Shown here: positions 1 through 10,286 of the stretch, piece after piece
Layout: each line of letters starts with the position of its first letter
Numbering within the stretch: position 1 is the stretch's first letter
The notes under the pieces: generated by a model
What the model saw: only the letters and a program-made list of their open reading frames with translations
What the model was told of the DNA's origin: nothing
Databases searched by the model: none
Source of the DNA: a virus
Direction: 5' to 3' (one strand)
DNA: 22,782 nucleotides
IMG/VR virus record: IMGVR_UViG_3300021226_000167
Location: 1 to 22,782 of that record
Translations under genes and position numbers: made by a program

Positions 1-100
1 TATGTGGTAGGTTTCGTGTTTGTCGTTTTTTTTTTGCAAGCAGAAGACGGCATACGAGATGCCTAAGTGACTGGAGTTCAGACGTGTGCTCTTCCGATCT
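1..100. other. Sequencing adapter contamination (Illumina P7 + index)
   Basis: Bases 37-60 are the Illumina P7 flow-cell sequence, 61-66 (GCCTAA) are the reverse complement of TruSeq index 3 (TTAGGC), and 67-100 are the TruSeq multiplexing primer ending in CTTCCGATCT. Bases 26-35 are a run of T, as expected when a read runs past the adapter into the poly-A-like artefact and is then reverse complemented. Bases 1-25 are unplaceable low-quality-type sequence. None of this belongs to the genome; an open frame that starts in it (86-343, plus) should be ignored. Confidence 0.98.
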
Positions 101-109
101 GTAACAGAG

Positions 110-171
110 TTATCCACAAAGTTATCCACAGGCGGCGCCGATTTTTCACAGAATGTCAAGCCGACACGCCG
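110..171. repeat. DnaA-box cluster 1 with GGCGCC palindrome and CCGACACGCCG box
   Basis: Two perfect TTATCCACA boxes lie at 110-118 and 122-130, 12 bp apart in the same orientation. They are followed by GGCGGCGCCG (131-140), a T-run, and TGTCAAGCCGACACGCCG ending at 171. Bases 122-171 match 1593-1643 almost throughout, differing only in the 6-7 nt after the T-run. The cluster lies just past the end of the leftward unit 599-215. TTATCCACA is the classical DnaA box; whether host DnaA binds here is inference. Confidence 0.8.
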
Positions 172-196
172 ACAACTGAGAAAAAACTTTGGGGAA

Positions 197-210
197 GATC
201 CGCCAGGGTA
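197..210. repeat. 14-bp repeat GATCCGCCAGGGTA, copy 1
   Basis: GATCCGCCAGGGTA occurs here and again, exactly, at 913-926. Both copies sit immediately downstream of the stop codon of the last gene of a leftward unit (5 nt and about 13 nt away). On the minus strand the first copy lies in the loop of a short GGGGA...TCCCC stem. It may belong to a transcript 3' end signal; that role is inferred from position only. Confidence 0.6.
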
Positions 211-214
211 TCCC

Positions 215-346
215 CTAGCGATTACGCTTACCGTAGTAACTAGCGATAATCGCCATAGCGAGAATCCCAAGTGCTACGAATCCGACAAGCGAGAATCCGA
301 TAAGGCTAGCAGTCTGCTGAACCTGTTCCAAGTGTTGAGGTGACAT
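215..346 (-). CDS. Small single-pass membrane protein, unknown function
   Basis: This is a 43-residue protein and the last gene of the leftward unit 599-215. The chosen ATG (346-344) has an AAAGGA Shine-Dalgarno sequence at good distance. The longer in-frame extension to 448 would run through the upstream gene's end and the intercistronic promoter, so it is rejected. Residues about 13-38 form one hydrophobic helix (GFSLVGFVALGILAMAII), followed by a basic tail YYGKRNR, so the tail is probably cytoplasmic. No family is recognised. Small phage membrane peptides of this type can act on host envelope or membrane proteins, but nothing here shows a specific target. Confidence 0.7.
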   Translation of the reverse strand: MSPQHLEQVQQTASLIGFSLVGFVALGILAMAIIASYYGKRNR

Positions 347-371
347 AAGTTGTCCTTTCGTTAGTAGTTTG

Positions 372-393
372 ATTTTAGCACAGGGTACTGACA
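372..393 (-). promoter_or_regulatory. 22-bp intercistronic promoter element (gene 599 to gene 346)
   Basis: On the minus strand this reads TGTCAGTACCC followed by TGTGCTAAAAT, that is, an extended -10 (TGC TAAAAT) directly behind the conserved TGTCAGTACCC block. It is one of seven related 22-24 bp elements in the leftward module. It starts five nt after the stop of the upstream gene. The leader that follows carries the AACGAAAGGA ribosome site shared with the genes at 1079 and 1242. Confidence 0.65.
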
Positions 394-398
394 AGACT

Positions 399-599
399 CT
401 AGAGAGTCTCAATCTTGTTACCAAGTGAGACATAGGCAGTCTTTCCACCTACGAAGGTGACGAAGGCAGTATCGCCATTCAGTCCCTTTACAGACTCAAT
501 CACACCTGTGTAGTGAAACACAGGACCGAAGGGGTAAGGCTTGTTGCTAAACGCAACACGCTTTCCAACAAGGGCTTTTACTTTCTGAGTGAAGGTCAT
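399..599 (-). CDS. Small basic protein, SH3-like appearance, unknown function
   Basis: This 66-residue protein is the first gene of the leftward unit under the head promoter at 675-720. Its ATG is preceded by AAAGGAAG at a suitable distance. The sequence is rich in Val, Gly and aromatic residues with alternating strands (KVKALVGKRVAFSNK, then HYTGVIESVKGLNGD, then TAFVTFVGGKTAYVSL), which suggests a small five-strand beta barrel such as an SH3 or KOW fold. That fold is inferred from the pattern only. No catalytic motif is visible. A gene in this position, with its own strong promoter, is likely expressed early. Confidence 0.75.
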   Translation of the reverse strand: MTFTQKVKALVGKRVAFSNKPYPFGPVFHYTGVIESVKGLNGDTAFVTFVGGKTAYVSLGNKIETL

Positions 600-674
600 G
601 AGACACTTCCTTTCTTTTTAGTGAGAGTCTTATTTGCTCTTTCGAGGCTCATACTCTCTATTGGTTTATATGTC

Positions 675-720
675 TATCTAATCACAGATTTATTTATTTG
701 TCAAGCCGACACGCCGATAA
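675..720 (-). promoter_or_regulatory. Head promoter of unit 599-215 with CGGCGTGTCGG box
   Basis: Read on the minus strand, TTATCGGCGTGTCGG is followed immediately by C and a perfect TTGACA, then CTGTGATTAGATA. The distance from the end of CGGCGTGTCGG to the -10 (TTAGAT, with TGA in front) is 24 bp, the same as in the other two head promoters (1485-1530 and 2259-2305). TTGACA lies one base beyond the box, so this is the only one of the three with a consensus -35. The box is probably a binding site for an activator or repressor; that is inference. Confidence 0.7.
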
Positions 721-773
721 GTCGAAAAAAACTTTTCACTTTTTTCTGTGTGGCTTTCTGTGTTCATGTCTTC

Positions 774-795
774 ATGGTAACAGTACCCACTGACA
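774..795 (-). promoter_or_regulatory. Additional 22-bp promoter-like element upstream of unit 599-215
   Basis: The minus strand reads TGTCAGTGGGTACTG and then TTACCAT, matching the 22-bp intercistronic element in length and order (TGTCAGT block, then TGT TACCAT as extended -10). No convincing gene follows directly. A 25-codon frame at 767-690 has no ribosome site and runs through the head promoter. The element may be a second, upstream promoter for the unit or a relic of a lost gene. Apart from this, the stretch 600-938 holds only the head promoter at 675-720, a DnaA-box cluster at 853-905 and a 14-bp repeat at 913-926. Confidence 0.45.
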
Positions 796-852
796 TTCGA
801 GCCTATTTTTTCCCACCTATTGGAAGATTTTTGTAACGGAATTATAACGAAG

Positions 853-905
853 TTATCCACAAAGTTATCCACAGGGGGCGCCGCCCTGTGTATAAGTTAT
901 CCACA
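853..905. repeat. DnaA-box cluster 2 (four boxes in 53 bp) with inverted pair
   Basis: TTATCCACA occurs at 853-861, 865-873 and 897-905, and TTATACACA on the minus strand at 887-895. The second and third boxes extend into a 12-bp inverted repeat (TTATCCACAGGG / CCCTGTGTATAA) around a GGCGCCG core, which can form a hairpin. The cluster lies just past the last gene of the leftward unit 1479-939. It is the densest of the three clusters and the best candidate for a DnaA-dependent or DnaA-titrating site. Confidence 0.82.
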
Positions 906-912
906 AGTAGTC

Positions 913-926
913 GATCCGCCAGGGTA
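913..926. repeat. 14-bp repeat GATCCGCCAGGGTA, copy 2
   Basis: This is an exact second copy of the repeat at 197-210, again immediately downstream of the last gene of a leftward unit (stop at 941-939). It overlaps a minus-strand TGTCACTACCC block (922-932) that resembles the front half of the intercistronic promoter element but lacks its -10. Confidence 0.6.
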
Positions 927-938
927 GTGACAGAGAGC

Positions 939-1079
939 CTAAGCCCTCACATCAGCCTCAGCAATTACTAGCCATGGCTCACCAAGAGCATCGCTACAGT
1001 GAGAGCACACGAAGAATGAGTAAGCACCGTCACTCACTTCTAGTGTTGCGATACGGTAGTCACAAAGTTCACATTCCAT
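939..1079 (-). CDS. Small zinc-finger-like protein (two CxxC pairs)
   Basis: This 46-residue protein is the last gene of the leftward unit 1479-939. The ATG at 1079 follows GAAAGGAAAACTAAA. The longer frame to 1181 runs through the previous gene and promoter, so it is not used. Cysteines form CxxC at residues 3-6 (CELC) and CxxC near residue 24 (CSHC), a spacing suitable for binding one zinc ion as a minimal zinc ribbon. The remainder is acidic (EADVRA end). Two neighbouring genes (1242 and 1479) also encode tiny cysteine-containing proteins. Zinc binding is inferred from the cysteine pattern; the target is unknown. Confidence 0.72.
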   Translation of the reverse strand: MECELCDYRIATLEVSDGAYSFFVCSHCSDALGEPWLVIAEADVRA

Positions 1080-1103
1080 TTTAGTTTTCCTTTCGTTAGT
1101 TTG

Positions 1104-1125
1104 AGTGTAGCAGGGGGTACTGACA
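1104..1125 (-). promoter_or_regulatory. 22-bp intercistronic promoter element (gene 1242 to gene 1079)
   Basis: The minus strand reads TGTCAGTACCCCC followed by TGCTACACT (extended -10). It begins at the base after the stop codon of the upstream gene and is followed by a roughly 24-nt leader with AACGAAAGGA. It differs from the element at 1943-1964 at only one position (C for A in the TGn triplet). Confidence 0.68.
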
Positions 1126-1242
1126 TTAGTCAGTGTAGCGTGGTTGAGACTCTCCACATGACTGACAGATAAGCACATCACCAGACACGGCTAGGTACTC
1201 TTCATCACCAGAGCACATGCACACATCGATTACAATTTCCAT
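1126..1242 (-). CDS. 38-residue cysteine-rich acidic protein
   Basis: The frame starts ATGGAAATTGTAATC at 1242, behind ACGAAAGGAAAACTA, and ends TAA at 1128-1126. The protein begins MEIVIDVCMCSGDEEYLAV and contains C8, C10 and a C-terminal CQSCGE motif (CxxC), so it could be a minimal zinc knuckle. It sits second in the unit 1479-939 and is flanked on both sides by 22-bp promoter elements, which supports it as real despite its size. The leader is nearly identical to those of the genes at 1079 and 346. No family is recognised. Confidence 0.65.
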   Translation of the reverse strand: MEIVIDVCMCSGDEEYLAVSGDVLICQSCGESQPRYTD

Positions 1243-1262
1243 TAGTTTTCCTTTCGTTATTT

Positions 1263-1286
1263 ACAGTATGACACTAGCCACTGACA
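1263..1286 (-). promoter_or_regulatory. Intercistronic promoter element, divergent copy
   Basis: The minus strand reads TGTCAGTGGCTAG and then TGTCATACTGT. The TGTCAGT block is kept but the CCC run and the -10 differ from the other copies, and the element is 24 nt long. It lies five nt after the stop of the gene at 1479-1291 and before the 1242 gene. Confidence 0.5.
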
Positions 1287-1290
1287 CTGA

Positions 1291-1479
1291 CTAGCGACCC
1301 TCTAGCAGGTCAGAGTCAACCCACATTGAGTCACGGTTAGACTCGATACCGTGACCAAGAGCAAACCCAATTTCACAAATCATCGAGTAACCCTGCTTGA
1401 TATCTTCAGGGGTAGCCTCGACCATGTTGTCGCAAAGAGCACACTGAACCATTACGTTTTCGTTGTTGTTGTTTTCCAT
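1291..1479 (-). CDS. Small acidic protein with CxxC motif, unknown function
   Basis: This is the first gene of the leftward unit 1479-939. Three in-frame starts are possible (1491, 1479, 1452). The -10 region at 1485-1490 lies only a few bases before the ATG at 1479, so that start would be leaderless. The ATG at 1452 would leave a leader resembling those of neighbouring genes but without a clear ribosome site. I use 1479 (62 residues). The protein has an Asn-rich start, a CALC motif, one more Cys (MICE), and an acidic end (DSDLLEGR). The residues after the second Cys (GFALGHGIESNRDSMW) look globular. No family is recognised. Confidence 0.62.
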   Translation of the reverse strand: MENNNNENVMVQCALCDNMVEATPEDIKQGYSMICEIGFALGHGIESNRDSMWVDSDLLEGR

Positions 1480-1484
1480 ATCTA

Positions 1485-1530
1485 TATACAATCACAGGGG
1501 TACGACATTTACAATGCGACACGCCGATAA
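1485..1530 (-). promoter_or_regulatory. Head promoter of unit 1479-939 with CGGCGTGTCG box
   Basis: On the minus strand TTATCGGCGTGTCG (last base of the box changed to C) is followed at the same 24-bp spacing by TGTGATTGTATATAG. A TGTCGTACCCC block like that of the intercistronic elements lies between them. The -10 (TTGTAT or the overlapping TATATA) ends within 5-10 bases of the ATG at 1479, which would make this transcript leaderless or nearly so. Confidence 0.66.
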
Positions 1531-1582
1531 ACACAAAACTTTTTCTGGGGAATTTTTGGACCATCTTATAAGACCTATATGG

Positions 1583-1643
1583 TGTGTATAAGTTATCCAC
1601 AGGCGGCGCCGATTTTTTTGGGATTTGTCAAGCCGACACGCCG
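1583..1643. repeat. DnaA-box cluster 3 with GGCGCC palindrome and CCGACACGCCG box
   Basis: A minus-strand TTATACACA (1583-1591) and a plus-strand TTATCCACA (1593-1601) form an inverted pair. GGCGGCGCCG, seven T residues, and TTGTCAAGCCGACACGCCG ending at 1643 follow. Bases 1593-1643 repeat 122-171. The cluster touches the stop codon of the last gene of the leftward unit 2220-1644. The palindrome followed by T residues could also act as a weak plus-strand terminator. Confidence 0.78.
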
Positions 1644-1748
1644 TTAGGCGTTCATTTTCTTTTTGGTCAGAGCAAGCAATTCTTCGAATTCCAATTCGGT
1701 CATGTACTCACCCTTGGCAATGTTCATGAGTTCTGCATAGCGTGACAT
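1644..1748 (-). CDS. 34-residue charged protein, unknown function
   Basis: The frame runs from ATG at 1748 to TAA at 1646-1644 and encodes a peptide beginning MSRYAELMNIAKGEYMTELE and ending KKKMNA. It is probably helical: acidic in the middle (TELEFEELLAL) and basic at the end. An in-frame ATG four codons upstream overlaps the GGATAAC leader. The downstream ATG is preferred because it aligns with the starts of the genes at 1913 and 2042 behind the same AACAAAGAATGGATAACAAA-type leader. It is the last gene of the unit 2220-1644. A tiny helical protein of this sort could bind a host protein, but nothing identifies a target. Confidence 0.62.
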   Translation of the reverse strand: MSRYAELMNIAKGEYMTELEFEELLALTKKKMNA

Positions 1749-1777
1749 TTTGTTATCCATTCTTTGTTTGTAGTTTG

Positions 1778-1799
1778 ATTCTATCGGGGGGTAGTGACA
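1778..1799 (-). promoter_or_regulatory. 22-bp intercistronic promoter element (gene 1913 to gene 1748)
   Basis: The minus strand reads TGTCACTACCCCCC and then CGATAGAAT, with CGA in place of the usual TGn before the -10 (TAGAAT). It lies four nt after the stop of the upstream gene. The leader AACAAAGAATGGATAAC is the same as that of the gene at 1913. Confidence 0.6.
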
Positions 1800-1802
1800 G
1801 GG

Positions 1803-1913
1803 CTACTTGCTAACCTTAGCCCACTCAGCATCTACCCTAGCCCAAAACTGTTCGCCAGTCTCTCCCTCTACAGGGTACTGAGCCAGTTCCGTTACGATAT
1901 CCATGTATTCCAT
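1803..1913 (-). CDS. 36-residue acidic protein, unknown function
   Basis: ATG at 1913 to TAG at 1805-1803 encodes a peptide starting MEYMDIVTELAQYPVEGETG and continuing EQFWARVDAEWAKVSK. The two tryptophans and the heptad-like spacing suggest an amphipathic C-terminal helix. The start is fixed by its leader (GGATAACAAA before ATG), shared with the gene at 1748, and by the 22-bp promoter element 30 nt upstream. It is third in the unit 2220-1644. No family is recognised. Confidence 0.64.
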   Translation of the reverse strand: MEYMDIVTELAQYPVEGETGEQFWARVDAEWAKVSK

Positions 1914-1942
1914 TTTGTTATCCATTCTTTGTTGTTGTTATG

Positions 1943-1964
1943 AGTGTATCAGGGGGTACTGACA
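1943..1964 (-). promoter_or_regulatory. 22-bp intercistronic promoter element (gene 2042 to gene 1913)
   Basis: This is the cleanest copy. The minus strand reads TGTCAGTACCCCC followed by TGATACACT (TGA plus TACACT as extended -10). It begins three nt past the stop codon of the upstream gene and precedes a leader of about 29 nt. Confidence 0.7.
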
Positions 1965-1967
1965 GTG

Positions 1968-2042
1968 CTAGCCAGCCAAGTGCCATACGATTACGAACAC
2001 TAGGGAGAATACCCCTGTGAAGAATGATACATATGCGAGCAT
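1968..2042 (-). CDS. 24-residue single-pass membrane peptide
   Basis: ATG at 2042 to TAG at 1970-1968 encodes a peptide starting MLAYVSFFTGVFSLVFVIV and ending WHLAG, almost entirely one hydrophobic helix with an aromatic belt. The ATG is preceded by AATAGGAAATAAAAA, a good ribosome site. It is second in the unit 2220-1644. A peptide of this size and composition should insert in the host membrane. It could be a small toxin-like or signalling peptide, but nothing in the sequence decides this. Its own promoter element and leader support it as real. Confidence 0.62.
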   Translation of the reverse strand: MLAYVSFFTGVFSLVFVIVWHLAG

Positions 2043-2073
2043 TTTTTATTTCCTATTCTTTGTTGTTAGTTAG

Positions 2074-2095
2074 AGTGTATCAGTAGTGACCGACA
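2074..2095 (-). promoter_or_regulatory. 22-bp intercistronic promoter element (gene 2220 to gene 2042)
   Basis: The minus strand reads TGTCGGTCACTAC followed by TGATACACT. The TGTC start and the extended -10 are kept while the CCC run is lost. It lies five nt past the stop codon of the gene at 2220-2101. Confidence 0.6.
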
Positions 2096-2100
2096 GTGCG

Positions 2101-2220
2101 TTACGGAATGCCAGTGATAAGGTGAGCGATTGCTTGCCACAGTGACTTGTGTCCAACAGTGGTACTGCTCTGTCCAACACGAACGATGTAGTAGCCTTGT
2201 GACTTTTTGATTCCGAACAT
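2101..2220 (-). CDS. 39-residue basic protein, unknown function
   Basis: ATG at 2220 follows AAAAGGAAAAGAAA, a strong ribosome site, and the frame ends TAA at 2103-2101. The protein begins MFGIKKSQGYYIVRVGQSST and continues TVGHKSLWQAIAHLITGIP. It could form a beta hairpin with a single amphipathic helix. It is the first gene of the unit 2220-1644, directly under the head promoter at 2259-2305, so it is likely to be the most strongly expressed of the four. No family is recognised. Confidence 0.66.
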   Translation of the reverse strand: MFGIKKSQGYYIVRVGQSSTTVGHKSLWQAIAHLITGIP

Positions 2221-2258
2221 TTTCTTTTCCTTTTCTTTAGTGTTTCTCTCTATGTATA

Positions 2259-2305
2259 TATCTAATCACAGAGCACCGACATTAGGAATCCGACACGCCG
2301 ATAAG
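2259..2305 (-). promoter_or_regulatory. Head promoter of unit 2220-1644 with CGGCGTGTCGG box
   Basis: On the minus strand CTTATCGGCGTGTCGG is followed 24 bp later by the -10 TTAGAT inside CTGTGATTAGATA. That 13-base string is identical in the head promoter at 675-720. A TGTCGGTGCT block resembling the intercistronic elements lies between them. The interval from here to 2456 is AT-rich and contains nothing else I can support except the promoter of the next plus-strand gene. Confidence 0.7.
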
Positions 2306-2456
2306 TAGAAAAAAAAGAAAAAGAATTTTTTGGGACAGGGTAGGCACTAGTGTGCGGTCTAATTTGTTTGTATATCCGCTATAAAGTGTGTATCGTACAT
2401 AAACAACCAAAATACAGAAAATTATAAATTTGAAATCTGAATAAAATCTGAAATTA

Positions 2457-2465
2457 TGATATACT
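2457..2465 (+). promoter_or_regulatory. Extended -10 promoter TGATATACT, leaderless for the endonuclease gene
   Basis: TGA plus TATACT (2460-2465) is followed by exactly six bases and then the ATG at 2472, so transcription would start at or next to the ATG. There is no Shine-Dalgarno sequence. No convincing -35 hexamer lies 16-18 bp upstream, as expected for an extended -10 promoter. Confidence 0.62.
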
Positions 2466-2471
2466 AACAAT

Positions 2472-2996
2472 ATGAAGCAATGCACAAAATGTCTAGAAAT
2501 AAAAATATATTCAGATTTTCACAAAAAGAAGCAAACTGCAGATGGCTATGCGTATCAGTGTAGGCAATGTGTTCGTGAATATGATATGAAAGAGCATGAC
2601 TCAAAAAGAGTGTTTCCAATAAAAGTCCAGGGTACAAAAATTCATTGTCGTAACTGCGATAAGTATCTTGACGAATCAATGTTTGGAAAAGCAAAAACAT
2701 ACTGCTCTGATTGTACAAAGTTTATTGGTCACTCTAAAAATATTACAAAGAAGAGTATGTCAGTAGATACATATATCGATTTGCTAAAAAGTCAAAACAA
2801 TGTTTGCAAAATTTGCGGTATGTCTGATAACAAAAGACTGTCCATTGATCACGATCATTCATGTTGTGATGGAGCATTCTCATGTGGAAAATGCATTAGA
2901 GGCCTTTTATGTTCAAGATGTAATAGGACACTAGGGATGGTCAATGATAATGTTGATTTACTAAGTAAAATGATCAAATACTTAAAACAATCCTGA
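2472..2996 (+). CDS. Recombination endonuclease VII-like HNH nuclease with two extra zinc ribbons
   Basis: This 174-residue protein carries the endonuclease VII core in its C-terminal third: zinc ligands C112/C115 and C147/C150, the catalytic DHDH at 126-129, and RCN at 149-151 with N151 as the conserved Asn. The T4 enzyme of this family cuts branched DNA such as Holliday junctions during packaging, but many phage homologues are free-standing homing-type endonucleases. The N-terminal half contains two CxxC...CxxC zinc ribbons (C4/C7 with C30/C33, and C59/C62 with C78/C81), probably for DNA binding. The gene lies alone on the plus strand between two leftward gene groups, under its own leaderless promoter. 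It could serve the phage or be a mobile passenger. Confidence 0.88.
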   Translation: MKQCTKCLEIKIYSDFHKKKQTADGYAYQCRQCVREYDMKEHDSKRVFPIKVQGTKIHCRNCDKYLDESMFGKAKTYCSDCTKFIGHSKNITKKSMSVDTYIDLLKSQNNVCKICGMSDNKRLSIDHDHSCCDGAFSCGKCIRGLLCSRCNRTLGMVNDNVDLLSKMIKYLKQS

Positions 2997-3062
2997 TAGA
3001 TAAACAATCAAAGCAAAGATACCTATAATACCTATTAGTCCAGAGAAAATATCTCCTAGCAT
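2982..3062 (-). CDS. 26-residue single-pass membrane peptide
   Basis: ATG at 3062 has a perfect AAGGAG ribosome site six nt upstream and the frame ends TAA at 2984-2982. The peptide begins MLGDIFSGLIGIIGIFALIV and ends YLSGLF, one hydrophobic helix. Its last codons overlap, convergently, the 3' end of the endonuclease gene by 15 bp. It is the last of a leftward group with the genes at 3246 and 3517. Function unknown; the strong ribosome site is the main evidence. Confidence 0.6.
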   Translation of the reverse strand: MLGDIFSGLIGIIGIFALIVYLSGLF

Positions 3063-3072
3063 TTTGATCTCC

Positions 3073-3246
3073 TTATAAAAAATTTAAATATTCAGAAAGA
3101 TTCTCTTTGGTCTCTATTCTAAAATTATAAAGACACATCGCAATAATTCCAGGGTATGTCCCACAGTATTCTGCAATCTCTCTGATATCCATATCCTTAT
3201 AGGCATTCTTTAGCCACATACGATTCATATAATCTGTTTTTACCAT
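3073..3246 (-). CDS. Small HTH-like protein, possible DNA-binding regulator
   Basis: The ATG at 3246 is preceded by AAGGAGTTATT, a near-perfect ribosome site. The longer frame to 3342 would overlap the upstream gene and is not used. The 57-residue protein has a segment DMDIREIAEYCGTYPGIIAM (residues about 18-38) resembling a helix-turn-helix: a helix ending in EIAEYCGT, a turn, and a recognition helix PGIIAMCLYNF. The start is basic (MVKTDYMNRMWLKNAYKD). A short hairpin (3280-3294, AGCAAC/GTTGCT) precedes the ribosome site. A small repressor or regulator role is likely but unproven. Confidence 0.68.
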   Translation of the reverse strand: MVKTDYMNRMWLKNAYKDMDIREIAEYCGTYPGIIAMCLYNFRIETKENLSEYLNFL

Positions 3247-3307
3247 AATAACTCCTTGGTCTAATTTGGACGGTATATAAGCAACGAAGTTGCTCCTGAA
3301 AGGGATA

Positions 3308-3517
3308 TTACCATTTATGTACAGGACACTTAGCCTGTTCAAGAGATGTCTTAAGCTTCATAAAACATCCACATTTGGAGCAACGCTTTGAACCCTTTAA
3401 AAAGAATGGACATTCAGCACATATAGCCAATCTTGATTCCATAAGTTCTTTTGTACTTCGGGGCATACTAGGATCAAACAAATCCCAAATACTTACATCG
3501 TCTCCAACTTTACTCAT
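3308..3517 (-). CDS. Small zinc-ribbon protein of a phage-widespread type
   Basis: The 69-residue protein carries a CAECPFF...CSKCGCFMKLK...CPVHKW pattern. Five cysteines fall in two CxxC pairs plus CGC, and a CP near the C-terminus suggests one bound zinc ion. I recognise this arrangement as a small protein found in many tailed phages, but no function is established to my knowledge. The start is set by an extended -10 (3524-3532) exactly six nt before the ATG, giving a leaderless transcript. The ATGA overlap with the 3717-3514 frame could also couple translation. Confidence 0.78.
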   Translation of the reverse strand: MSKVGDDVSIWDLFDPSMPRSTKELMESRLAICAECPFFLKGSKRCSKCGCFMKLKTSLEQAKCPVHKW

Positions 3518-3717
3518 GTATCTATTATATCAAAAGAAAATCCCCTAGCTACGAATTGGAATGTATTACAATATCCATAGTTAGGGGAAATTCTGCTGGT
3601 TTCAGTGAACCAACTTTGCTGGTTTCCGATTTGGTACACCTGCTTGGCATACTTGACTGGGGTCATATAAATAATAGCACAATATTCTTGTTTAGTCAAT
3701 ATCAACACATATCCCAT
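3514..3717 (-). CDS. Possible 67-residue protein, unknown
   Basis: The frame starts MGYVLILTKQEYCAIIYMTP and ends DIIDT with a TGA that overlaps the next gene's ATG (ATGA), typical of coupled genes. The middle has tyrosine- and glutamine-rich residues (KYAKQVYQIGNQQSWF). Against it: there is no ribosome site, no clear promoter, and the leftward terminator-like hairpin lies within its last third. It may be a real leaderless gene or an old one. The interval 3718-3851 upstream holds a perfect CTACATGTAG palindrome (3789-3798) but no other gene. Confidence 0.4.
   Translation of the reverse strand: MGYVLILTKQEYCAIIYMTPVKYAKQVYQIGNQQSWFTETSRISPNYGYCNTFQFVARGFSFDIIDT
3524..3532 (-). promoter_or_regulatory. 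Extended -10 promoter TGATATAAT, leaderless for the zinc-ribbon gene
   Basis: On the minus strand TGA TATAAT is followed by six bases (AGATAC) and the ATG. It overlaps the T-run of the hairpin at 3541-3588, so a terminator and a promoter are fused back to back. Confidence 0.68.
3532..3588 (-). terminator. Rho-independent terminator-like hairpin, leftward
   Basis: TCCCCTAGCTA (3541-3551) pairs with TAGTTAGGGGA (3578-3588), 10 of 11 positions, around a 26-nt loop. On the minus strand the stem is followed by TTTTCTTTT. It lies inside the 3' end of the 3717-3514 frame and ends right at the next promoter. The long loop makes it a moderate rather than strong terminator. Confidence 0.5.
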
Positions 3718-3851
3718 TTTGGGTGTGGTGTTTGGAATCTCTATTTCACCGCCGAATTTTCCGCCGCGTTTTAAGAGCGATTAATTAACTACATGTAGTA
3801 TTCAGGGTATGGGAGGAACACAACATATACTAGTTTATTTAAAACACAATA

Positions 3852-3857
3852 TATAAT
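3852..3857 (+). promoter_or_regulatory. -10 box TATAAT close to the DUF2746-like gene
   Basis: TATAAT is followed by eight bases and then the ATG at 3866, leaving at most one or two bases of leader. No ribosome site is present in between. Confidence 0.55.
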
Positions 3858-3865
3858 TGATTGTT

Positions 3866-4177
3866 ATGACAATTCAAGAATGGCAGACTCTAATAGGTTT
3901 AATACTAGGGATATCAGCAGTAGCTGGAGTGTTGTTTGCAATTCTAAGATTCTATATAAAAACTTTTGCAAAAGAACAGTTTGATGAAATCAGACATGAG
4001 CTAAAGCCTAATGGTGGATCATCAATAAAGGATCAGGTAACAAGGCTCGAAGAGAAACAAAAACAAATAGCTGAACGTCAACATGAAGACGATGTAAAGT
4101 TTGAACAACGACTTGATAAGCTAGAGAATAAGATAGATGATGTATTTAGAATAATACTTGAAAAGCTATCGAAATAG
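3866..4177 (+). CDS. DUF2746-like membrane protein with coiled coil (holin-associated type)
   Basis: This 103-residue protein has one transmembrane helix near residues 9-30 (IGLILGISAVAGVLFAILRF), a segment IRHELKPNGGSSIKDQ around residues 43-58 that I associate with the DUF2746 family of actinophages, and a charged coiled-coil tail (RLEEKQKQIAERQ to the end). Members are often placed near lysis genes, though their role is not settled. The ATG at 3866 is preferred to the TTG at 3857 because the TATAAT ends at 3857. It stands alone between the small leftward genes and the late control region. Confidence 0.68.
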   Translation: MTIQEWQTLIGLILGISAVAGVLFAILRFYIKTFAKEQFDEIRHELKPNGGSSIKDQVTRLEEKQKQIAERQHEDDVKFEQRLDKLENKIDDVFRIILEKLSK

Positions 4178-4193
4178 ATATACTATTCCCCCA

Positions 4194-4216
4194 AATCCTA
4201 CGGATTGTTTTTCTTT
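4194..4216 (+). terminator. Possible terminator after the DUF2746-like gene
   Basis: AATCC-TAC-GGATT is a short 5-bp stem with a three-base loop, followed by GTTTTTCTTT. It lies 17 nt after the stop codon. The short stem makes it a weak candidate. Confidence 0.5.
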
Positions 4217-4297
4217 ATTTGAGAGGCTATCTCTAAGCGAGAGTTTTCTTAGTATCTATTATCTTTATATACAGTAGCACACTGTCAAGCACTATTT

Positions 4298-4341
4298 GAT
4301 AACGAAATGATAACAATGTTATAACGATTTGATAACAATTA
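4298..4341 (+). repeat. Four 11-bp iterons (GATAAC-type), helically phased
   Basis: Consecutive 11-bp units read GATAACGAAAT, GATAACAATGT, TATAACGATTT and GATAACAATTA. The 11-bp period places each copy on the same face of the helix. Two GTTAT copies in reverse orientation follow at about 4368-4382, next to a -10 box. The array lies at the head of the rightward late genes and is a good candidate for a regulator-binding array. Confidence 0.7.
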
Positions 4342-4376
4342 CTATTTACCTATTTTCGTTACCTAATTGTTATATA

Positions 4377-4385
4377 TGTTATACT
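4377..4385 (+). promoter_or_regulatory. Extended -10 TGTTATACT in front of the stem-loop
   Basis: TGT TATACT (-10 at 4380-4385) is placed so that transcription would start at about 4391-4392, the first base of the stem-loop at 4392-4439. The iterons lie directly upstream. Confidence 0.55.
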
Positions 4386-4391
4386 ATTTAT

Positions 4392-4439
4392 GGCTGGCAT
4401 TCGAGCGTCTCTCATACCCACTATTTTCGAGTGCCAGCC
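4392..4439 (+). ncRNA. Large stem-loop, possible structured 5' RNA or small RNA
   Basis: GGCTGGCATTCG (4392-4403) pairs with CGAGTGCCAGCC (4428-4439) over 12 positions with one G-U pair, around a 24-nt loop. A weak TTATTAG run follows. With the -10 at 4380-4385 the RNA would begin at the foot of the stem. An 18-codon frame (ATG at 4390) also spans it, so a leader peptide is an alternative. The structure is seen; expression is inferred. Confidence 0.5.
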
Positions 4440-4451
4440 TTATTAGTAGTG

Positions 4452-4457
4452 TATAAT
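4452..4457 (+). promoter_or_regulatory. -10 box TATAAT of the late region
   Basis: TATAATTATATTA is followed by CTATGAC. The same string, with one change, precedes the protease gene (19460-19480). There are nine bases between the box and the ATG at 4467. Confidence 0.6.
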
Positions 4458-4466
4458 TATATTACT

Positions 4467-4844
4467 ATGACTACTACTGCTGATATTTTTGGTGCAAATC
4501 CATACAGCATGAAATGGACTGTCGTTAGAGGCGACACATCTGTGCTTCGTGTAGAATTTTTAGAAAATGACGAAGTTACAGAATATGATACATCAGGCTG
4601 GGAATATGCTTCATACGCATATGATTTTAAAGGTGATGTATTAGACGAACTTGAGACTTCTTCAGGAGAAGGCTATGTTGAAATCACTGCTCCTGCTGAT
4701 ACCACAAAATTCTGGGGAACAGGATATAAAGCAGTAGTAGCAGAATTAGCTTTCGATCTCCAGGTAACTATTGACAATACCGTTTGGACACCTGTCATTG
4801 GTACTATTACTGTTATCGGAGACGTTACAGGAGGAAGTTTATAA
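4467..4844 (+). CDS. BppU-like virion protein
   Basis: This 125-residue protein begins MTTTADIFGANPYS. The longer frame to 4329 would run through the stem-loop and promoter and is not used. The segment WTVVRGDTSVLRVEF (residues about 17-31) matches WTVVRGDSAAFRVYV in the protein at 7812-8222. This is the N-terminal beta-sandwich pattern seen in BppU-like baseplate/tail attachment proteins, which I recognise only by resemblance. It ends TAA overlapping the next ATG (TAATG), so it is coupled to the collagen-like gene. It is the first gene of the fibre run. Confidence 0.68.
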   Translation: MTTTADIFGANPYSMKWTVVRGDTSVLRVEFLENDEVTEYDTSGWEYASYAYDFKGDVLDELETSSGEGYVEITAPADTTKFWGTGYKAVVAELAFDLQVTIDNTVWTPVIGTITVIGDVTGGSL

Positions 4845-5560
4845 TGCCAACAATTAAGATTGTTCCATTCCCTGGATCAGCTGGACAAACAGGACCAGCA
4901 GGACCAACAGGAAGTCAAGGATCTGCAGGACCAGCAGGAGAAGATGCACTTTGGTCATTTACTGGTGCTTACAATAACTCAGCCACATATGCCATTGGTG
5001 ATGTTGTTACATACAATGGCTCTACTTGGTATCGTGATGCAACTGGTACTGTTGGACAGGTTCCATCAGACAGTTCTACAGTTTGGGAACTAGTTGCTGC
5101 AAGTGGAGAAGGTGTTCCAGCAGGAGGTGCTTCAGGTTATTACCTTGGCAAAAACTCTGCAACCAACTATGATGTTACGTGGATTGATCCATCAGTTATT
5201 GAAATTAAAAAGGTATCTGAAACCTTTACAACAATAAATGCTCCAACAGGAGTTGTAACACACAACTGTTCTCTTGGACATATTTTCAATCACACAAATT
5301 TATCTGCAAACTTTACTGCAAACCTTACAAACCTAGCACTTGACGCTGGTTCAGCAACAACAGTTACACTTATCCTAAATCAAGGATCAACTGCAAGAAT
5401 TCCAAGTGCTGTACAAATTGCTGGGGCTGCTCAGACAATTAACTGGCAGGGAGGTAGTGTCCCACCTGGAAATGCTAACAAGAAGGACATTGTTAGTTTT
5501 AGTATTTTGAATAATGGAGGAGTGTACACTGTCTTCGGTCAGCTTGTATCATTTGGATAA
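4844..5560 (+). CDS. Collagen-like tail/fibre protein
   Basis: This 238-residue protein starts at the TAATG overlap behind a strong AGGAGGAAG ribosome site. After a short beta lead, residues 11-34 are eight Gly-X-Y triplets (GSAGQTGPAGPTGSQGSAG and on), a collagen triple helix often used by phage fibres for trimerisation. A carbohydrate-binding-type segment follows (WSFTGAYNNSATYAIGDVV, then YNGSTWYRD), similar to small chitin-binding modules. The C-terminal half is a beta-rich domain. Likely a trimeric receptor-binding or virion surface protein. It ends TAATG into the LamG gene. Confidence 0.8.
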   Translation: MPTIKIVPFPGSAGQTGPAGPTGSQGSAGPAGEDALWSFTGAYNNSATYAIGDVVTYNGSTWYRDATGTVGQVPSDSSTVWELVAASGEGVPAGGASGYYLGKNSATNYDVTWIDPSVIEIKKVSETFTTINAPTGVVTHNCSLGHIFNHTNLSANFTANLTNLALDAGSATTVTLILNQGSTARIPSAVQIAGAAQTINWQGGSVPPGNANKKDIVSFSILNNGGVYTVFGQLVSFG

Positions 5561-6312
5561 TGCTTAGTTCATTTACAGGATCATTTCAGGCAGGTAAGAG
5601 GTCTGGCACAGTAGAGCCTTTTACTGCAAATATTGTTCAATCTGGACTCTTTTCTCACTATGAGTCAAGCTATCCAGATTCATACCCTGGAACTGGTACG
5701 TCCTGGTATGACCTAAAAAATAACGCAAGCCCAGCACTACTTCAAAACGGTACTGACTATAGTCTTGTAAATAACGGTGTATTCGTTCTTGACGGTGTTG
5801 ACGATTATATTACCATTCCAGATACTACAACTATTCGTGGAGCAATTAATACAGCATTTACTGTACAGGTTTGGATGAATATTCAGTCATTCAATGATAA
5901 GGATAGAGTGCTAGAAAAGATGGCTTTTAATTCTGGATATTCTTTGCAACTTCGTAATGAAGGTCAGCTAGGTCTTGAAATGAAGGGATCGATAAGTAAT
6001 AATTATGTTACATCGCTTTCTACAATTCCTCTAAACACTTGGGTATTAGTTTCTTCAGTTATTGCATTTAATGGTAGAAGCACTACGCCAAGCAAGGTAT
6101 ATGTAAATGGTGTGCAATACATTTATCTAGAAAACAATGAAACTAGCACATCTACTGCTGGTAGCCCACTAAAGGTTAACTCTGGTCAAAATCCAGGTAC
6201 TCGTGAACCAATCTCTAAAATTGGTGCAGTATACATTTATAACAGAGCACTAACCATTGCTGAAGTACAAGAAAACTTTGATGCTACGAAGGGAAGATTT
6301 GGTGTAGCTTAG
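5560..6312 (+). CDS. LamG/concanavalin A-like lectin domain protein
   Basis: This 250-residue protein holds a laminin-G type jelly roll: FVLDGVDDYITIPDT at the first strand, FTVQVWMNI, then NTWVLVSSVIAF, VYVNG and the closing IGAVYIYNRALTIAEVQ. This is the usual set of LamG_3 landmarks, and such domains bind glycans on the virion surface. The start is coupled to the previous stop by TAATG. An extended -10 promoter sits after its stop codon. Confidence 0.83.
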   Translation: MLSSFTGSFQAGKRSGTVEPFTANIVQSGLFSHYESSYPDSYPGTGTSWYDLKNNASPALLQNGTDYSLVNNGVFVLDGVDDYITIPDTTTIRGAINTAFTVQVWMNIQSFNDKDRVLEKMAFNSGYSLQLRNEGQLGLEMKGSISNNYVTSLSTIPLNTWVLVSSVIAFNGRSTTPSKVYVNGVQYIYLENNETSTSTAGSPLKVNSGQNPGTREPISKIGAVYIYNRALTIAEVQENFDATKGRFGVA

Positions 6313-6316
6313 GCTA

Positions 6317-6325
6317 TGATATAAT
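6317..6325 (+). promoter_or_regulatory. Extended -10 promoter TGATATAAT
   Basis: TGA TATAAT lies 15 bases before the ATG at 6341. A GGTGAT ribosome site in the short leader serves the next gene. Confidence 0.65.
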
Positions 6326-6340
6326 CTAATTGGTGATAAA

Positions 6341-6916
6341 ATGCCTCAGACACATACCCCTACAGTAGCAACAGGAACACCTTCTGCTACATATGTTGCA
6401 ACTATTCCAGCACTTGCTGACGACGCAAACATTGTAACTGCATTTGAGGATTATCACGATAGCGTAAGTTGGTATATTAAAGATGCTATTAAAAAGAGTG
6501 ATACAGCATTACAGACAGTTGGTGGAGCATTAACAGTATCTGGTGCAGCAACTATTACTGGAGCATTGGTTGCTTCATCAACAATAAATGTTACTGGTGC
6601 TGCAACATTTAGTGCAAACGTTACAGTTCCACTTTTAACTGCATCAACTGGTATTGTTGGTGACATAAAAGCACCAGATGGAACATCAACTGTTTTAGAT
6701 AATGGTACAACTGGTGGAACTATTTCTCTTTCTGGATCAACTATAACTGCTTCAAATGCAACATTTTATGGAACATCTGCAGCTGCAAGAAGCTCTATTC
6801 TTTATAAAGCAACAGGTGCTGATTATACAACTATTGATGGCGTAAGAAGAATTTTTGTCGGAGCAACACAGCCAACAGGTCCAACTCTGCAGGCTGGCGA
6901 CATCTGGATGTGGTAA
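6341..6916 (+). CDS. Tail-fibre-type virion protein, small
   Basis: This 191-residue protein has low-complexity Thr/Ala/Gly-rich beta repeats (TVSGAATITGALVASSTIN, VTGAATFSANV) typical of phage fibre shafts. The N-terminus (TPSATYVATIPALADDANIV) may be an attachment segment. The end, RRIFVGATQPTGPTLQAGDI plus WMW, is a common closing segment in phage structural proteins. It ends TAATGA three bases before the next ATG. A fibre or fibre-accessory protein is the best call. Confidence 0.7.
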   Translation: MPQTHTPTVATGTPSATYVATIPALADDANIVTAFEDYHDSVSWYIKDAIKKSDTALQTVGGALTVSGAATITGALVASSTINVTGAATFSANVTVPLLTASTGIVGDIKAPDGTSTVLDNGTTGGTISLSGSTITASNATFYGTSAAARSSILYKATGADYTTIDGVRRIFVGATQPTGPTLQAGDIWMW

Positions 6917-6919
6917 TGA

Positions 6920-7789
6920 ATGGCATATTCAATTACTCTTCCTGGTGGTGCAACTGGAACAAATGGTCCAGTTCTTGGTGTAAACAGTAGTTCTTTTTAT
7001 ACTGATCAATACAATGTAGGATTTCCAAATTCAGCAGCTGGCGTTAGAAAAAATCTAGATGGCAACTATATTGTAAAAATTAATTCTATTAGTCCAGATA
7101 GGCTTACAGGAAATCCAGATACTGCTATTTGGTATAGTCCTGCAGGTGCAAACTTCCGTGCTGGTGAAACAATAACATCTGCTACAGACCCACAAACACT
7201 AGTCCAATTAAGAATTTTTTATAATGGCACTCAGCCAACCTGGTACAGAAATAATGATGGACTTGGAAGATGTACTGATAATAATATTAGTACAGGAGCT
7301 GTTGTTTACACATACCCTGGATCAATTGCTGGAACATGGTCATGGTATACTGTTCCATCTGCACCACCGACAATTTCTACATCTGTAAATGGTACAAGCG
7401 TAACAGTTACAAGAAGTAATTCTGCAAGCGATGGCGGTAGCACAATTACAGATTATAGAGTTCAAAGAAGAGAATCTTCAAATGGCACAACTTGGGGTAC
7501 TTGGACAACAGCTGTTAGTATGGCTACAACATATACATTCTCAGGACTAACGCCAGCAAAGTATTATCAGTTTAGAATTTATGCAGTAAATGCAGCAGGC
7601 AATTCCACTGCAACAACATCAACTACAGTGTTTATTGCAGCAATTACTAAGTATAATGGGACAACATTTGCTCTTTTATCAAAATTAAAAAAGCATAATG
7701 GAACATCTTGGACAAACATAACAACTGCAAAAAGATATAATGGTACGAGTTGGGAAATAATTGATATATCTAGTATTCCGAATACGTAA
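6920..7789 (+). CDS. FN3-domain virion protein with C-terminal NGT-W repeats
   Basis: This 289-residue protein has a beta-rich N-terminal half, then a fibronectin type III domain (about residues 147-240, with PSAPPTISTS at its start, YRVQRRES, and YQFRIYAVNAAGNS). After that come three copies of a K-(Y/H)-NGT-(S/T)-(W/F) motif. FN3 domains in phage tail proteins are thought to aid weak surface adhesion. The start lies three nt after the previous stop without a ribosome site, so it is probably coupled. Confidence 0.8.
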   Translation: MAYSITLPGGATGTNGPVLGVNSSSFYTDQYNVGFPNSAAGVRKNLDGNYIVKINSISPDRLTGNPDTAIWYSPAGANFRAGETITSATDPQTLVQLRIFYNGTQPTWYRNNDGLGRCTDNNISTGAVVYTYPGSIAGTWSWYTVPSAPPTISTSVNGTSVTVTRSNSASDGGSTITDYRVQRRESSNGTTWGTWTTAVSMATTYTFSGLTPAKYYQFRIYAVNAAGNSTATTSTTVFIAAITKYNGTTFALLSKLKKHNGTSWTNITTAKRYNGTSWEIIDISSIPNT

Positions 7790-7796
7790 CTAGATA

Positions 7797-7805
7797 TGAT
7801 ATAAT
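7797..7805 (+). promoter_or_regulatory. Extended -10 promoter TGATATAAT, leaderless
   Basis: TGA TATAAT is followed by six bases (CTTATT) and the ATG at 7812. There is no ribosome site. Confidence 0.7.
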
Positions 7806-7811
7806 CTTATT

Positions 7812-8222
7812 ATGGCAACTACAAGAAGCTCTGGGTATTCTATTGGCAATACCCCACCATTCATCACATGGACAGTTGTACGTGGAGACTCTGCAGCATT
7901 TCGTGTTTATGTAACCGATGATGCAAAAGTCCCACTAAATATTGACAACTGGACAATTGATATGGAGATCAAGAGACCAACAGTTGCACAAACGACTCCA
8001 GAAATTACAGATGCTGCAACACTAATTGTAACTCTTACACCAGAAGCTACAGCTGCAGACGGAGATGGAGAGTTTACAGTAAACCTTGCACCAGAAGAAT
8101 CAGTACTTCTTGAGACTGGTGATATTTTTGACATTGAGCTTTCAGATGCTACACGAGTATGGACAGTTGCTCAGGGTAGCATGATTATTCTAGAGGATGT
8201 TACTAACTCAGTGGTGTCATAA
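7812..8222 (+). CDS. BppU-like virion protein, paralogue of 4467-4844
   Basis: This 136-residue protein shares WTVVRGD and the following strand pattern with the protein at 4467, then continues with an Ig-like beta sandwich (NIDNWTIDMEIKRP, FTVNLAPEESVLLETGDI, FDIELSD). The acidic loop regions are long. It probably attaches fibres or caps the baseplate, judging by family resemblance only. It ends in a TAATG overlap with the next gene and is first in a subgroup under its own leaderless promoter. Confidence 0.66.
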   Translation: MATTRSSGYSIGNTPPFITWTVVRGDSAAFRVYVTDDAKVPLNIDNWTIDMEIKRPTVAQTTPEITDAATLIVTLTPEATAADGDGEFTVNLAPEESVLLETGDIFDIELSDATRVWTVAQGSMIILEDVTNSVVS

Positions 8223-8533
8223 TGGCTACCGTAACAATCATAGATGCCAATTCTGGGGTAGCTAGCAGAACAAAATCTGTAGACTATCCAAAGGCATCGT
8301 TTGACAATTTACAGTCAACTACAAAGGTTACTGATATTATTGTCAATAAAAAAGTTATTGGTGCAGTAGATTACTCAATATTTGATCTTGCAGACTTATC
8401 ACCAATACCAGCTGTTGAAAACATTGGAACATATAGAATCAGATTTTCTAATATTGGTATAGTCGGATATCCAGCAGGGTACGCTGCACCAATCGGTATA
8501 GCCATTATTGGATATAATAATCTAATCTTATAA
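8222..8533 (+). CDS. Unknown small virion-region protein
   Basis: This 103-residue protein starts MATVTIIDANSGVAS behind a TAATG overlap. It is beta-rich (KVTDIIVNKKVIGAVDYS, TYRIRFSNIGIVGYPAGY) and hydrophobic at the end (IGIAIIGYNNLIL). I do not recognise a family. Its place between two fibre-type genes suggests a structural role. Confidence 0.6.
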   Translation: MATVTIIDANSGVASRTKSVDYPKASFDNLQSTTKVTDIIVNKKVIGAVDYSIFDLADLSPIPAVENIGTYRIRFSNIGIVGYPAGYAAPIGIAIIGYNNLIL

Positions 8534-8535
8534 TC

Positions 8536-8544
8536 TGATATACT
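8536..8544 (+). promoter_or_regulatory. Extended -10 promoter TGATATACT, leaderless
   Basis: TGA TATACT is followed by six bases (TTTATT) and the ATG at 8551. The box starts three nt after the previous stop. Confidence 0.68.
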
Positions 8545-8550
8545 TTTATT

Positions 8551-8997
8551 ATGGCTAGAATTGATATCAATACGCTAAAATCAAAGTTTGAAACAGGAGA
8601 TATTCCTACTGGTGCAGACTATGTTGACTTAATTGATACCCTGATTAGACAAGCCACAGATATTGGCTCATTTGGAAATAATGAGCATACAGTCAATGGA
8701 ATTGAGTCAGAAACTATTATCGATAGTTTTTCTGCTTCTGAATGGAGAATGGTTAAGTACCTTGTCTCAATTTCAAAGACTACAAATGGAGATAATAAGT
8801 TCTATGCTACAGAACTTACCATACTTTGCGACGGAACAAATGTTAGCGTATCTGAGTATGGAATGATAGACAACGATGGGGATATTGGAACCGTTAGTGT
8901 CTCTAAGGTTTCGGGTAACGTTAGATTAGTAGTTACTCCAAACCTACTAGTAAGGCCAGTCACTGTACGATTTGCTCGTATGGGACTTAAGGCATAA
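8551..8997 (+). CDS. Virion protein with shared C-terminal beta domain
   Basis: This 148-residue protein has an N-terminal helix pair (INTLKSKFETGDIPTGADYV, then DLIDTLI) of the kind common at fibre starts. Its C-terminal beta domain runs from DSFSASEWRMVKYLVSISK through TELTILCDGTNVSVSEYG to the end. The pattern S-x-KYLV...TE(L/V)L...DG...(S/T)EY repeats in the last 90 residues of the large fibre at 9012-10286, so the two share a domain. A fibre tip or decoration protein is likely. Confidence 0.66.
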   Translation: MARIDINTLKSKFETGDIPTGADYVDLIDTLIRQATDIGSFGNNEHTVNGIESETIIDSFSASEWRMVKYLVSISKTTNGDNKFYATELTILCDGTNVSVSEYGMIDNDGDIGTVSVSKVSGNVRLVVTPNLLVRPVTVRFARMGLKA

Positions 8998-9011
8998 TAC
9001 AGGAGATAAAA

Positions 9012-10286
9012 ATGGCAACCGTAAATAAAGACTTTAGAGTCAAAAATGGACTTGTTGTAGAAGGTACAACAGGTACTATCAATGGTTCCAACATTCTTAC
9101 AGAAGCATCTACTGAGTTTCTTCAAGATACCGTTGGAGCAATGGTCAGCACAAATACTGAATCTGGTATTAGTGTAACTTATGACGACACGAATGGAAAG
9201 CTTGACTTTAATGTCAACGACCCAACAATTACACTAACTGGTGAAGTAACTGGTTCTGCAACAATGACAGATCTAGGCAACGTTAGTATCTCAACAACAA
9301 TTGCAGCAAACTCTGTTGCTCTTGGCACAGACACTACAGGTGACTATGTTGCAAGTGTTTCTGCAGGTACAGGAATTTCAGTTTCTGGTACTGGAGAAGG
9401 TGCAGCAGTTACAGTAACAAACTCTGGTGTAACAGCAATTGCTGGAACAACTAACGAGATTGAAGTTTCTGCAGGTACTGGTTCTGTAACAGTTGGTCTT
9501 CCAAATAACGTAACAATTGGTGGTACACTAACAGTTACTGGTGATCTTACAGTTAATGGTACAACTACAACTCTTAATACAGATACCCTCGCAGTTGAGG
9601 ATAACATTATTGTTCTTAACTCAAATGTAAGTGGTACACCATCACTTGATGCAGGTATTGAGGTTGAGCGTGGTACATACACAAATGCTAAACTTTACTG
9701 GAATGAAACAGCAAATGCTTGGTATGTTTCAACACCTGGAGATAGTAATGGTGCAGCTACAGATGCTGCAATTACAACTGGTGGTAGTATCCAGATGTTT
9801 ACTAATATTACAGATGGAACAAATACAGCAACACCAGATTCAAGTACTGACACTTTGACATTTGCTGCAGGTACTGGTCTAACAGCCACTGTAAACAGTA
9901 CATCAGATACTGTAACATTCTCATTAGATGCAGCTGCAACAGCCTCAGTGCTCTCCGTAACGCTTCCTGACGCACTATTAGGTAGTGCAACTGCAACATC
10001 TTCTGGAACAAGTGTAACTCTTGATACATTCTCAACAGCTACATATTCTTCTGCAAAGTATCTTGTACAAGCAAAGAACGGTTCTGGAGATATTGAGGTT
10101 ACAGAGGTGCTAGTTACCGTTGATGGTAGTGGAAATGTTTACATTACAGAATATGCAAATGTTTTTTCAAATGCATCACTTGCAGAATTTACTGCAACAT
10201 GGTCAAGTAATACACTAACCTTTACTGCTAACTCAACAACAAGTGGTATTGTATTCAAGGTAAGCAAGACTTACATCGAAGCATAA
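9012..10286 (+). CDS. Tail fibre protein
   Basis: This 424-residue protein has an AGGAGA ribosome site six bases before the ATG. The N-terminus MATVNKDFRVKNGLVVEG is shared with the next gene. The middle carries repeat motifs typical of phage fibres (GGTLTVTGDLTVNGTTTTLN, then LAVEDNIIVLNS) and a segment DAGIEVERGT... KLYWNE...W that I recognise from fibres of marine and other phages. The last 90 residues form the beta domain shared with 8551-8997. Likely a trimeric side or tail fibre that contacts the host. Confidence 0.8.
   Translation: MATVNKDFRVKNGLVVEGTTGTINGSNILTEASTEFLQDTVGAMVSTNTESGISVTYDDTNGKLDFNVNDPTITLTGEVTGSATMTDLGNVSISTTIAANSVALGTDTTGDYVASVSAGTGISVSGTGEGAAVTVTNSGVTAIAGTTNEIEVSAGTGSVTVGLPNNVTIGGTLTVTGDLTVNGTTTTLNTDTLAVEDNIIVLNSNVSGTPSLDAGIEVERGTYTNAKLYWNETANAWYVSTPGDSNGAATDAAITTGGSIQMFTNITDGTNTATPDSSTDTLTFAAGTGLTATVNSTSDTVTFSLDAAATASVLSVTLPDALLGSATATSSGTSVTLDTFSTATYSSAKYLVQAKNGSGDIEVTEVLVTVDGSGNVYITEYANVFSNASLAEFTATWSSNTLTFTANSTTSGIVFKVSKTYIEA

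Follow-up and report, generated by a model that had tools for sequence, protein, structure and literature searches.

Candidate host DnaA-binding modules in the early region of a large freshwater actinophage and a separate box dyad in cultured Streptomyces phages

INTRODUCTION

Bacterial oriC carries a basal unwinding system composed of DnaA boxes, a short GC-rich spacer, and DnaA-trios (PMC8287927). E. coli contains 307 TTWTNCACA sites, and extra copies of its datA locus titrate DnaA (PMC5835720). Iteron plasmid and P1-type origins are mobile replicons that combine host DnaA boxes with other short repeats (PMC5043065). Among large Streptomyces phages, those of cluster BE1 have terminal repeats of approximately 11 kb (PMC5764925), and MiniFlayer and MulchRoom are helper-dependent satellites that lack key replication genes (PMC10690885). 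No statement on where these large actinophages start replication was found in the open-access literature. Here, we describe clusters of DnaA boxes in IMG/VR record IMGVR_UViG_3300021226_000167, of which the stretch analyzed (22,782 bases; the window) is a fragment of a large actinophage, and compare them with the corresponding regions of its relatives.

RESULTS AND DISCUSSION

The window and its phage

The record begins with bases that are not phage DNA and need to be trimmed.

Positions 1 to 100, unstranded: sequencing artifact, a poly-T run and Illumina P7/TruSeq adapter read-through with index GCCTAA (adapter at 37 to 100)

Close DNA matches to these 100 bases are solely adapter-contaminated phage records. 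Because the contig end is adapter, the first box cluster (positions 110 to 130) may be truncated leftward. The right-hand part of the window is a structural region, with genes for tail proteins, an endolysin-like peptidase, a portal, and a head maturation protease. IMG/VR contains 320 confirmed relatives of the head protease, whose matches among named phages are mostly Streptomyces phages of the Stanwilliamsviridae, such as the Samistivirus Bmoc, with which the window phage shares 46%, 42%, and 41% identity in the portal, protease, and capsid, respectively. Streptomyces phages account for 127 of the 139 tblastn records. Judged by its homologous portal, protease, and capsid genes, the phage is related to the Stanwilliamsviridae (Streptomyces cluster BE).

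The host is probably an actinobacterium, as suggested by a WhiB gene and by the phage family. A search for the host with the phage WhiB gave one match, in a contig labeled as a Chitinophagaceae MAG (L261, 3001 to 3279), which is probably a mis-binned phage contig carrying a phage-type WhiB gene. The relative G002 carries a phage tmRNA (L221, 13378 to 13709) with the predicted tag ADKSSYALAA, and a degenerate pattern of this tag had no match among the GTDB genome contigs scanned.

DnaA boxes in the window

An earlier note, made from the sequence of this DNA, had pointed to eight TTAT(C/A)CACA boxes in three clusters next to a GGCGCC palindrome, and these observations hold. Exact matches to TTATMCACA lie at 110+, 122+, 853+, 865+, 887-, 897+, 1583-, and 1593+, and the other 21 kb of the window contains none. 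Dinucleotide shuffles held 0.84 such boxes on average and 4 at most, with 0 of 100 shuffles reaching 8. One-mismatch boxes show no excess over chance in the window, so only near-consensus boxes are informative. The modules and the gene between the first two are as follows.

Positions 110 to 130, plus strand: DnaA-box cluster 1, a direct pair of boxes with a 12-bp spacing, aligning with the modules of relatives
Positions 134 to 139, unstranded: GGCGCC palindrome of module 1
Positions 154 to 171, minus strand: TGTCAAGCCGACACGCCG element, conserved, to the right of GGCGCC in module 1
Positions 399 to 599, minus strand: small leftward early gene (66 amino acids) that belongs to no known family and lies between the first two modules
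Positions 853 to 905, unstranded: DnaA-box cluster 2, four boxes (+, +, -, +) with spacings of 12, 22, and 10 bp, around GGCGCC
Positions 877 to 882, unstranded: GGCGCC palindrome of module 2
Positions 1583 to 1601, unstranded: DnaA-box cluster 3, two abutting divergent boxes whose starts are 10 bp apart
Positions 1605 to 1610, unstranded: GGCGCC palindrome of module 3
Positions 1626 to 1643, minus strand: TGTCAAGCCGACACGCCG element, conserved, to the right of GGCGCC in module 3

In all three modules, GGCGCC follows the last box of the forward run after a gap of 3 bp. Cluster 2 holds the four boxes that had been claimed for it; the 12-bp inverted pair also claimed there has its arms, TTATCCACAGGG and CCCTGTGTATAA, in place around GGCGCCG, complementary at 11 of the 12 positions. 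The abutting divergent pair TGTGTATAAgTTATCCACA is present twice, at 887 to 905 and 1583 to 1601. The clusters had further been placed one after each early unit; they lie between leftward small-gene units and belong to a larger GGCGCC module family, whose last three members are those in the window.

Other short repeats were also observed. CGACACGCCG (minus strand, CGGCGTGTCG) occurs at 162 to 171, 707 to 716, 1517 to 1526, 1634 to 1643, and 2291 to 2300; this element is limited to the early region and is also found in the distant relative G003, with CGGCGTGTCG counts of 5 in the window, 9 in G001, 8 in G002, and 7 in G003 (reversed control, 0). A GATAAC/TAACGA repeat group lies at 4288 to 4380, just upstream of the structural operon, and has counterparts in G001 and G005. 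ATAACG-type 6-mers were considered as an iteron array and rejected, as they show no clear concentration at the clusters.

Module architecture in relatives

In G001 (39,102 bp), the closest long contig, a left small gene and the head protease are both present, each at approximately 95% protein identity, so the left region of the window belongs to the phage and a chimeric contig is ruled out. The 66-amino-acid gene is 95% identical in G001 and 74% identical in G002. Cluster 2 is orthologous to G001 7797 to 7849, and cluster 3 is identical at G001 9031 to 9049. An origin of the boxes by chance or in assembly, to which the adapter sequence at the contig end might have pointed, is of negligible probability: the boxes are enriched, the same modules stand in the independent contigs G001 and G002, and reversed-pattern controls gave zero, and the relatives already refute it.

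Thirteen box-bearing modules of the window, G001, and G002 align to AGTTATCCACAGG(C/G)GGCGCCG, and most continue with TTGTCAA-CCGACACGCCG after the palindrome. The proximal box is perfect in 12 of the 13, and the second box takes one of three registers, approximately 10, 12, or 21 bp from the proximal box. G001 has six box-bearing modules over 3 kb, and G002 has five, a count that includes one module with a single near-consensus proximal box at 31048. All 15 GGCGCC sites of G001 lie within 188 to 9053 (L219) and all 17 of G002 (92,156 bp) within 19,828 to 32,591 (L221 to L222), approximately one per early gene junction and nowhere else in either genome. DnaA boxes occupy only the junctions closest to the structural region; distal junctions often carry a GTAAC-N6-GTTAC-type repeat in the slot instead. 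Among the genomes checked, this palindrome-linked, per-junction ladder is found in the window, G001, and G002 only.

Such an arrangement could also serve transcriptional control, in which host DnaA between early units would act as a repressor, activator, or roadblock and the units close to the late operon would sense the DnaA level. The boxes fill the junction slot between successive leftward units, and the alternative repeat in distal slots is what a regulator-binding slot would predict. However, the boxes overlap no recognizable promoters, and sigma-70-like and terminator-like sites in the early region are no more frequent than in shuffles, and we consider this explanation rather improbable, while giving it more weight than the other alternatives below. 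A role of GGCGCC as an RNA terminator hairpin is not supported for the window, whose modules fold no better than shuffles (z of 1.02, -0.36, and 0.30). Some G001 junctions fold modestly better than shuffles (z of about -1.7), and GGCGCC stands just after minus-strand stop codons at several junctions of that contig. An Rfam search gave no matches.

Box clusters are present in G001, G002, G003, G005 to G009, G011, G012, and G014, and those of the window type lie approximately 17 to 34 kb upstream of the head protease where gene order is readable. No cluster was found in five long relatives, whose records may be fragments.

Box spacing and the protein that reads the sites

The distinct adjacent spacings of boxes between 9 and 60 bp, 44 in number, all fall at 10 to 13, 20 to 24, 33 to 34, 39, or 43 bp, with a best period of 10.5 bp (R = 0.77), consistent with helical phasing; the set comprises 96 family loci that are related to each other, so the nominal P value overstates their independence. 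Tandem pairs of the form TTATNCACA-N0-4-TTATNCACA number 13 in 14 relatives (reversed control, 0). In IMG/VR, at least 120 stretches contain the tandem pattern GTTATCCACA-N0-6-GTTATCCACAGG (reversed pattern, 0), and 50 of the 120 listed have two or more ORF matches to this phage family at an E value of <1e-8, many of them weak. By this pattern, DnaA-box pairs are found beyond this phage group, and uncultured phages may widely make use of host DnaA sites.

The sites might instead be read by another protein, such as a phage regulator, their likeness to DnaA boxes being coincidental. In the window, G001, and G002, the proximal box always precedes the same GC palindrome, and the true site may thus be longer. 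In contrast, where GGCGCC is lacking (G003, G005, G006, G008, and the Streptomyces phages), the sole common part is the DnaA consensus, and the variants there follow TT(A/G)TNCACA; a coincidental likeness appears quite improbable.

The relatives encode helicase, primase, SSB, DnaE polymerase, and RecA, and Bac_DnaA_C (PF08299) is absent from the ten records searched, in which no phage DnaA is detectable. Because the boxes vary as DnaA boxes do and the replisome comes without DnaA, host DnaA very likely binds the modules, with the box judged here by the general DnaA consensus. That the phage DNA carries host-type DnaA sites is well supported by sequence comparison, through consensus, phasing, recurrence, and the conserved dyad described below. 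In this respect the earlier reading, that the boxes may form an origin or titrate host DnaA, is partly supported.

Locus B and the cultured Streptomyces phages

Several relatives have a second type of box cluster in AT-rich DNA, locus B, which lies outside the window and is listed here with the dyad of a cultured phage.

G005, 6024 to 6084: locus B, also in the terminal-repeat copy
G006, 10596 to 10669: locus B
G008, 310 to 351: locus B
G002, 19306 to 19337: locus B
Samisti12, L256, 591 to 656 (dyad at about 122.9 to 123.1 kb of the phage): unannotated dyad, with the corresponding gap in L251 to L258 and L264 to L267

The two ends of G005 form an exact direct repeat of 8,517 bp (1 to 8517 and 116024 to 124540), which may be a long terminal repeat like those of the Streptomyces BE phages or an assembly overlap. 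Locus B is AT-rich in G002, G006, and Bmoc, and only 2 to 24% of random 600-bp stretches are as unstable as it is in the relatives. DnaA-trios were sought by eye, and TAGTAG follows one box at locus B in a noncanonical orientation. A gene for a DUF932 protein lies a few kilobases from locus B in both Bmoc (gp2; L248, 1286 to 2308) and G005 (L226, 1498 to 2499), and the two proteins are approximately 55% identical.

In an unbiased scan of Bmoc, the best box window is at 121,605, where convergent genes leave a noncoding gap of 1.2 kb immediately ahead of the right terminal repeat. Cultured Streptomyces phages have the dyad TTATCCACA-N13-15-TGTGGATAA close to their terminal repeat, as an island of conserved noncoding sequence. 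Eight further Samistivirus-type records carry TTATCCACA in the homologous gap, with an inverted box 22 to 24 bp on and boxes in register, and several of them have a third box another 13 bp on. In Karimacvirus records such as MindFlayer, Sollertia, and LukeCage, only approximately 37 bp of the query aligns, which is the inverted box pair. The equivalent gap of Coruscant lacks an exact box. The dyad is not named in the annotations shown, and no description of it was found in the open-access literature. Its position between convergent genes, not at a promoter, speaks against transcriptional control.

These phages also bear on the possibility that the boxes are a decoy, which would sequester host DnaA as phage copies build up and so halt initiation on the host chromosome. 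The 8 to 11 strong boxes within 1.5 to 3 kb are compatible with such a sponge, and E. coli DnaA is titrated by extra datA copies (PMC5835720). However, the Streptomyces phages have only about 2 to 6 boxes, the number of sites in E. coli alone means that many phage copies would be needed, and a sponge requires neither strict helical spacing nor dyads; we regard titration as unlikely.

A possible part in phage replication

An origin reading is plausible, and the evidence that bears on it is mixed. Near-consensus boxes are clustered and helically phased, but the window modules have no adjoining AT-rich unwinding region (65 to 97% of random 600-bp stretches are as unstable), which transcriptional control would accommodate. 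GC skew had been proposed in the earlier note as a check for an origin. In five of six relatives, the whole-genome skew minimum does fall within a few kilobases of the clusters (the G008 profile is noisy), yet third-codon-position skew shows no strand-composition switch, so the total-skew signal reflects gene direction, and skew was dropped as origin evidence. The satellites MiniFlayer and MulchRoom contain no box cluster, which argues mildly against an origin. No Rep-like match to a plasmid-type initiator was found among the window proteins scanned.

Helical phasing, dyads, and the AT-rich surroundings of locus B suit an initiator complex, and for this reason we favor a part of the modules in the initiation of phage replication, with locus B as the melting site; this is the most likely role, held tentatively at somewhat short of an even chance. 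After DNA entry, we infer, host DnaA would oligomerize on the modules as well as on the AT-rich dyad close to the terminal repeat, would open the DNA, and would help to seat the phage helicase. The window modules would then be auxiliary DnaA-loading sites, and locus B of the relatives, which is the better origin candidate, would be the site that melts. The early-junction slot would suit transcriptional control just as well, and the box count would agree with titration.

More broadly, and with greater reserve, it is possible that a large group of lytic actinophages, although equipped with a replisome, rely on host DnaA to start replication, which would couple phage replication to the host initiation cycle, the oriC-like sites being the dyad near the terminal repeat and the box-palindrome ladder of the freshwater phages. 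With the conserved, unannotated dyad of cultured Streptomyces phages, the start of their replication can be sought by a simple bench experiment, and the freshwater relatives, through their modules, would reveal how host DnaA is integrated into the early region of a phage.

Comparison with known systems

The ingredients of these loci are known and their arrangement is new, no description having been found in the open-access literature; the modules form a conserved and under-described set of probable DnaA-binding sites. They resemble bacterial oriC and its basal unwinding system (PMC8287927) in their near-consensus, phased boxes and in the GC-rich stretch directly after the last box of the window modules, but these lack an adjoining AT-rich unwinding region and convincing DnaA-trios, and the phage modules are scattered over 1.5 to 3 kb between small genes. 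Host DnaA boxes and other short repeats on a mobile replicon recall the iteron plasmid and P1-type origins (PMC5043065), whereas the phage repeats are per-junction intergenic elements rather than a single iteron array, and no plasmid-type Rep was identified. Like E. coli datA, a titration and ATP-hydrolysis locus (PMC5835720), the phage has consensus boxes that are clustered away from any proven origin and could take up a large amount of DnaA, but these boxes are phage-borne and distributed among several intergenic modules that include a GGCGCC palindrome. A further counterpart is in the Stanwilliamsviridae, whose head and replisome genes are homologous, and in which the noncoding gap before the right terminal repeat of Samisti12, NootNoot, Karimac, and MindFlayer holds a conserved box dyad, often with phased extra boxes. 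Unlike the window modules, that gap is a single locus without GGCGCC, and it resembles locus B of the freshwater relatives.
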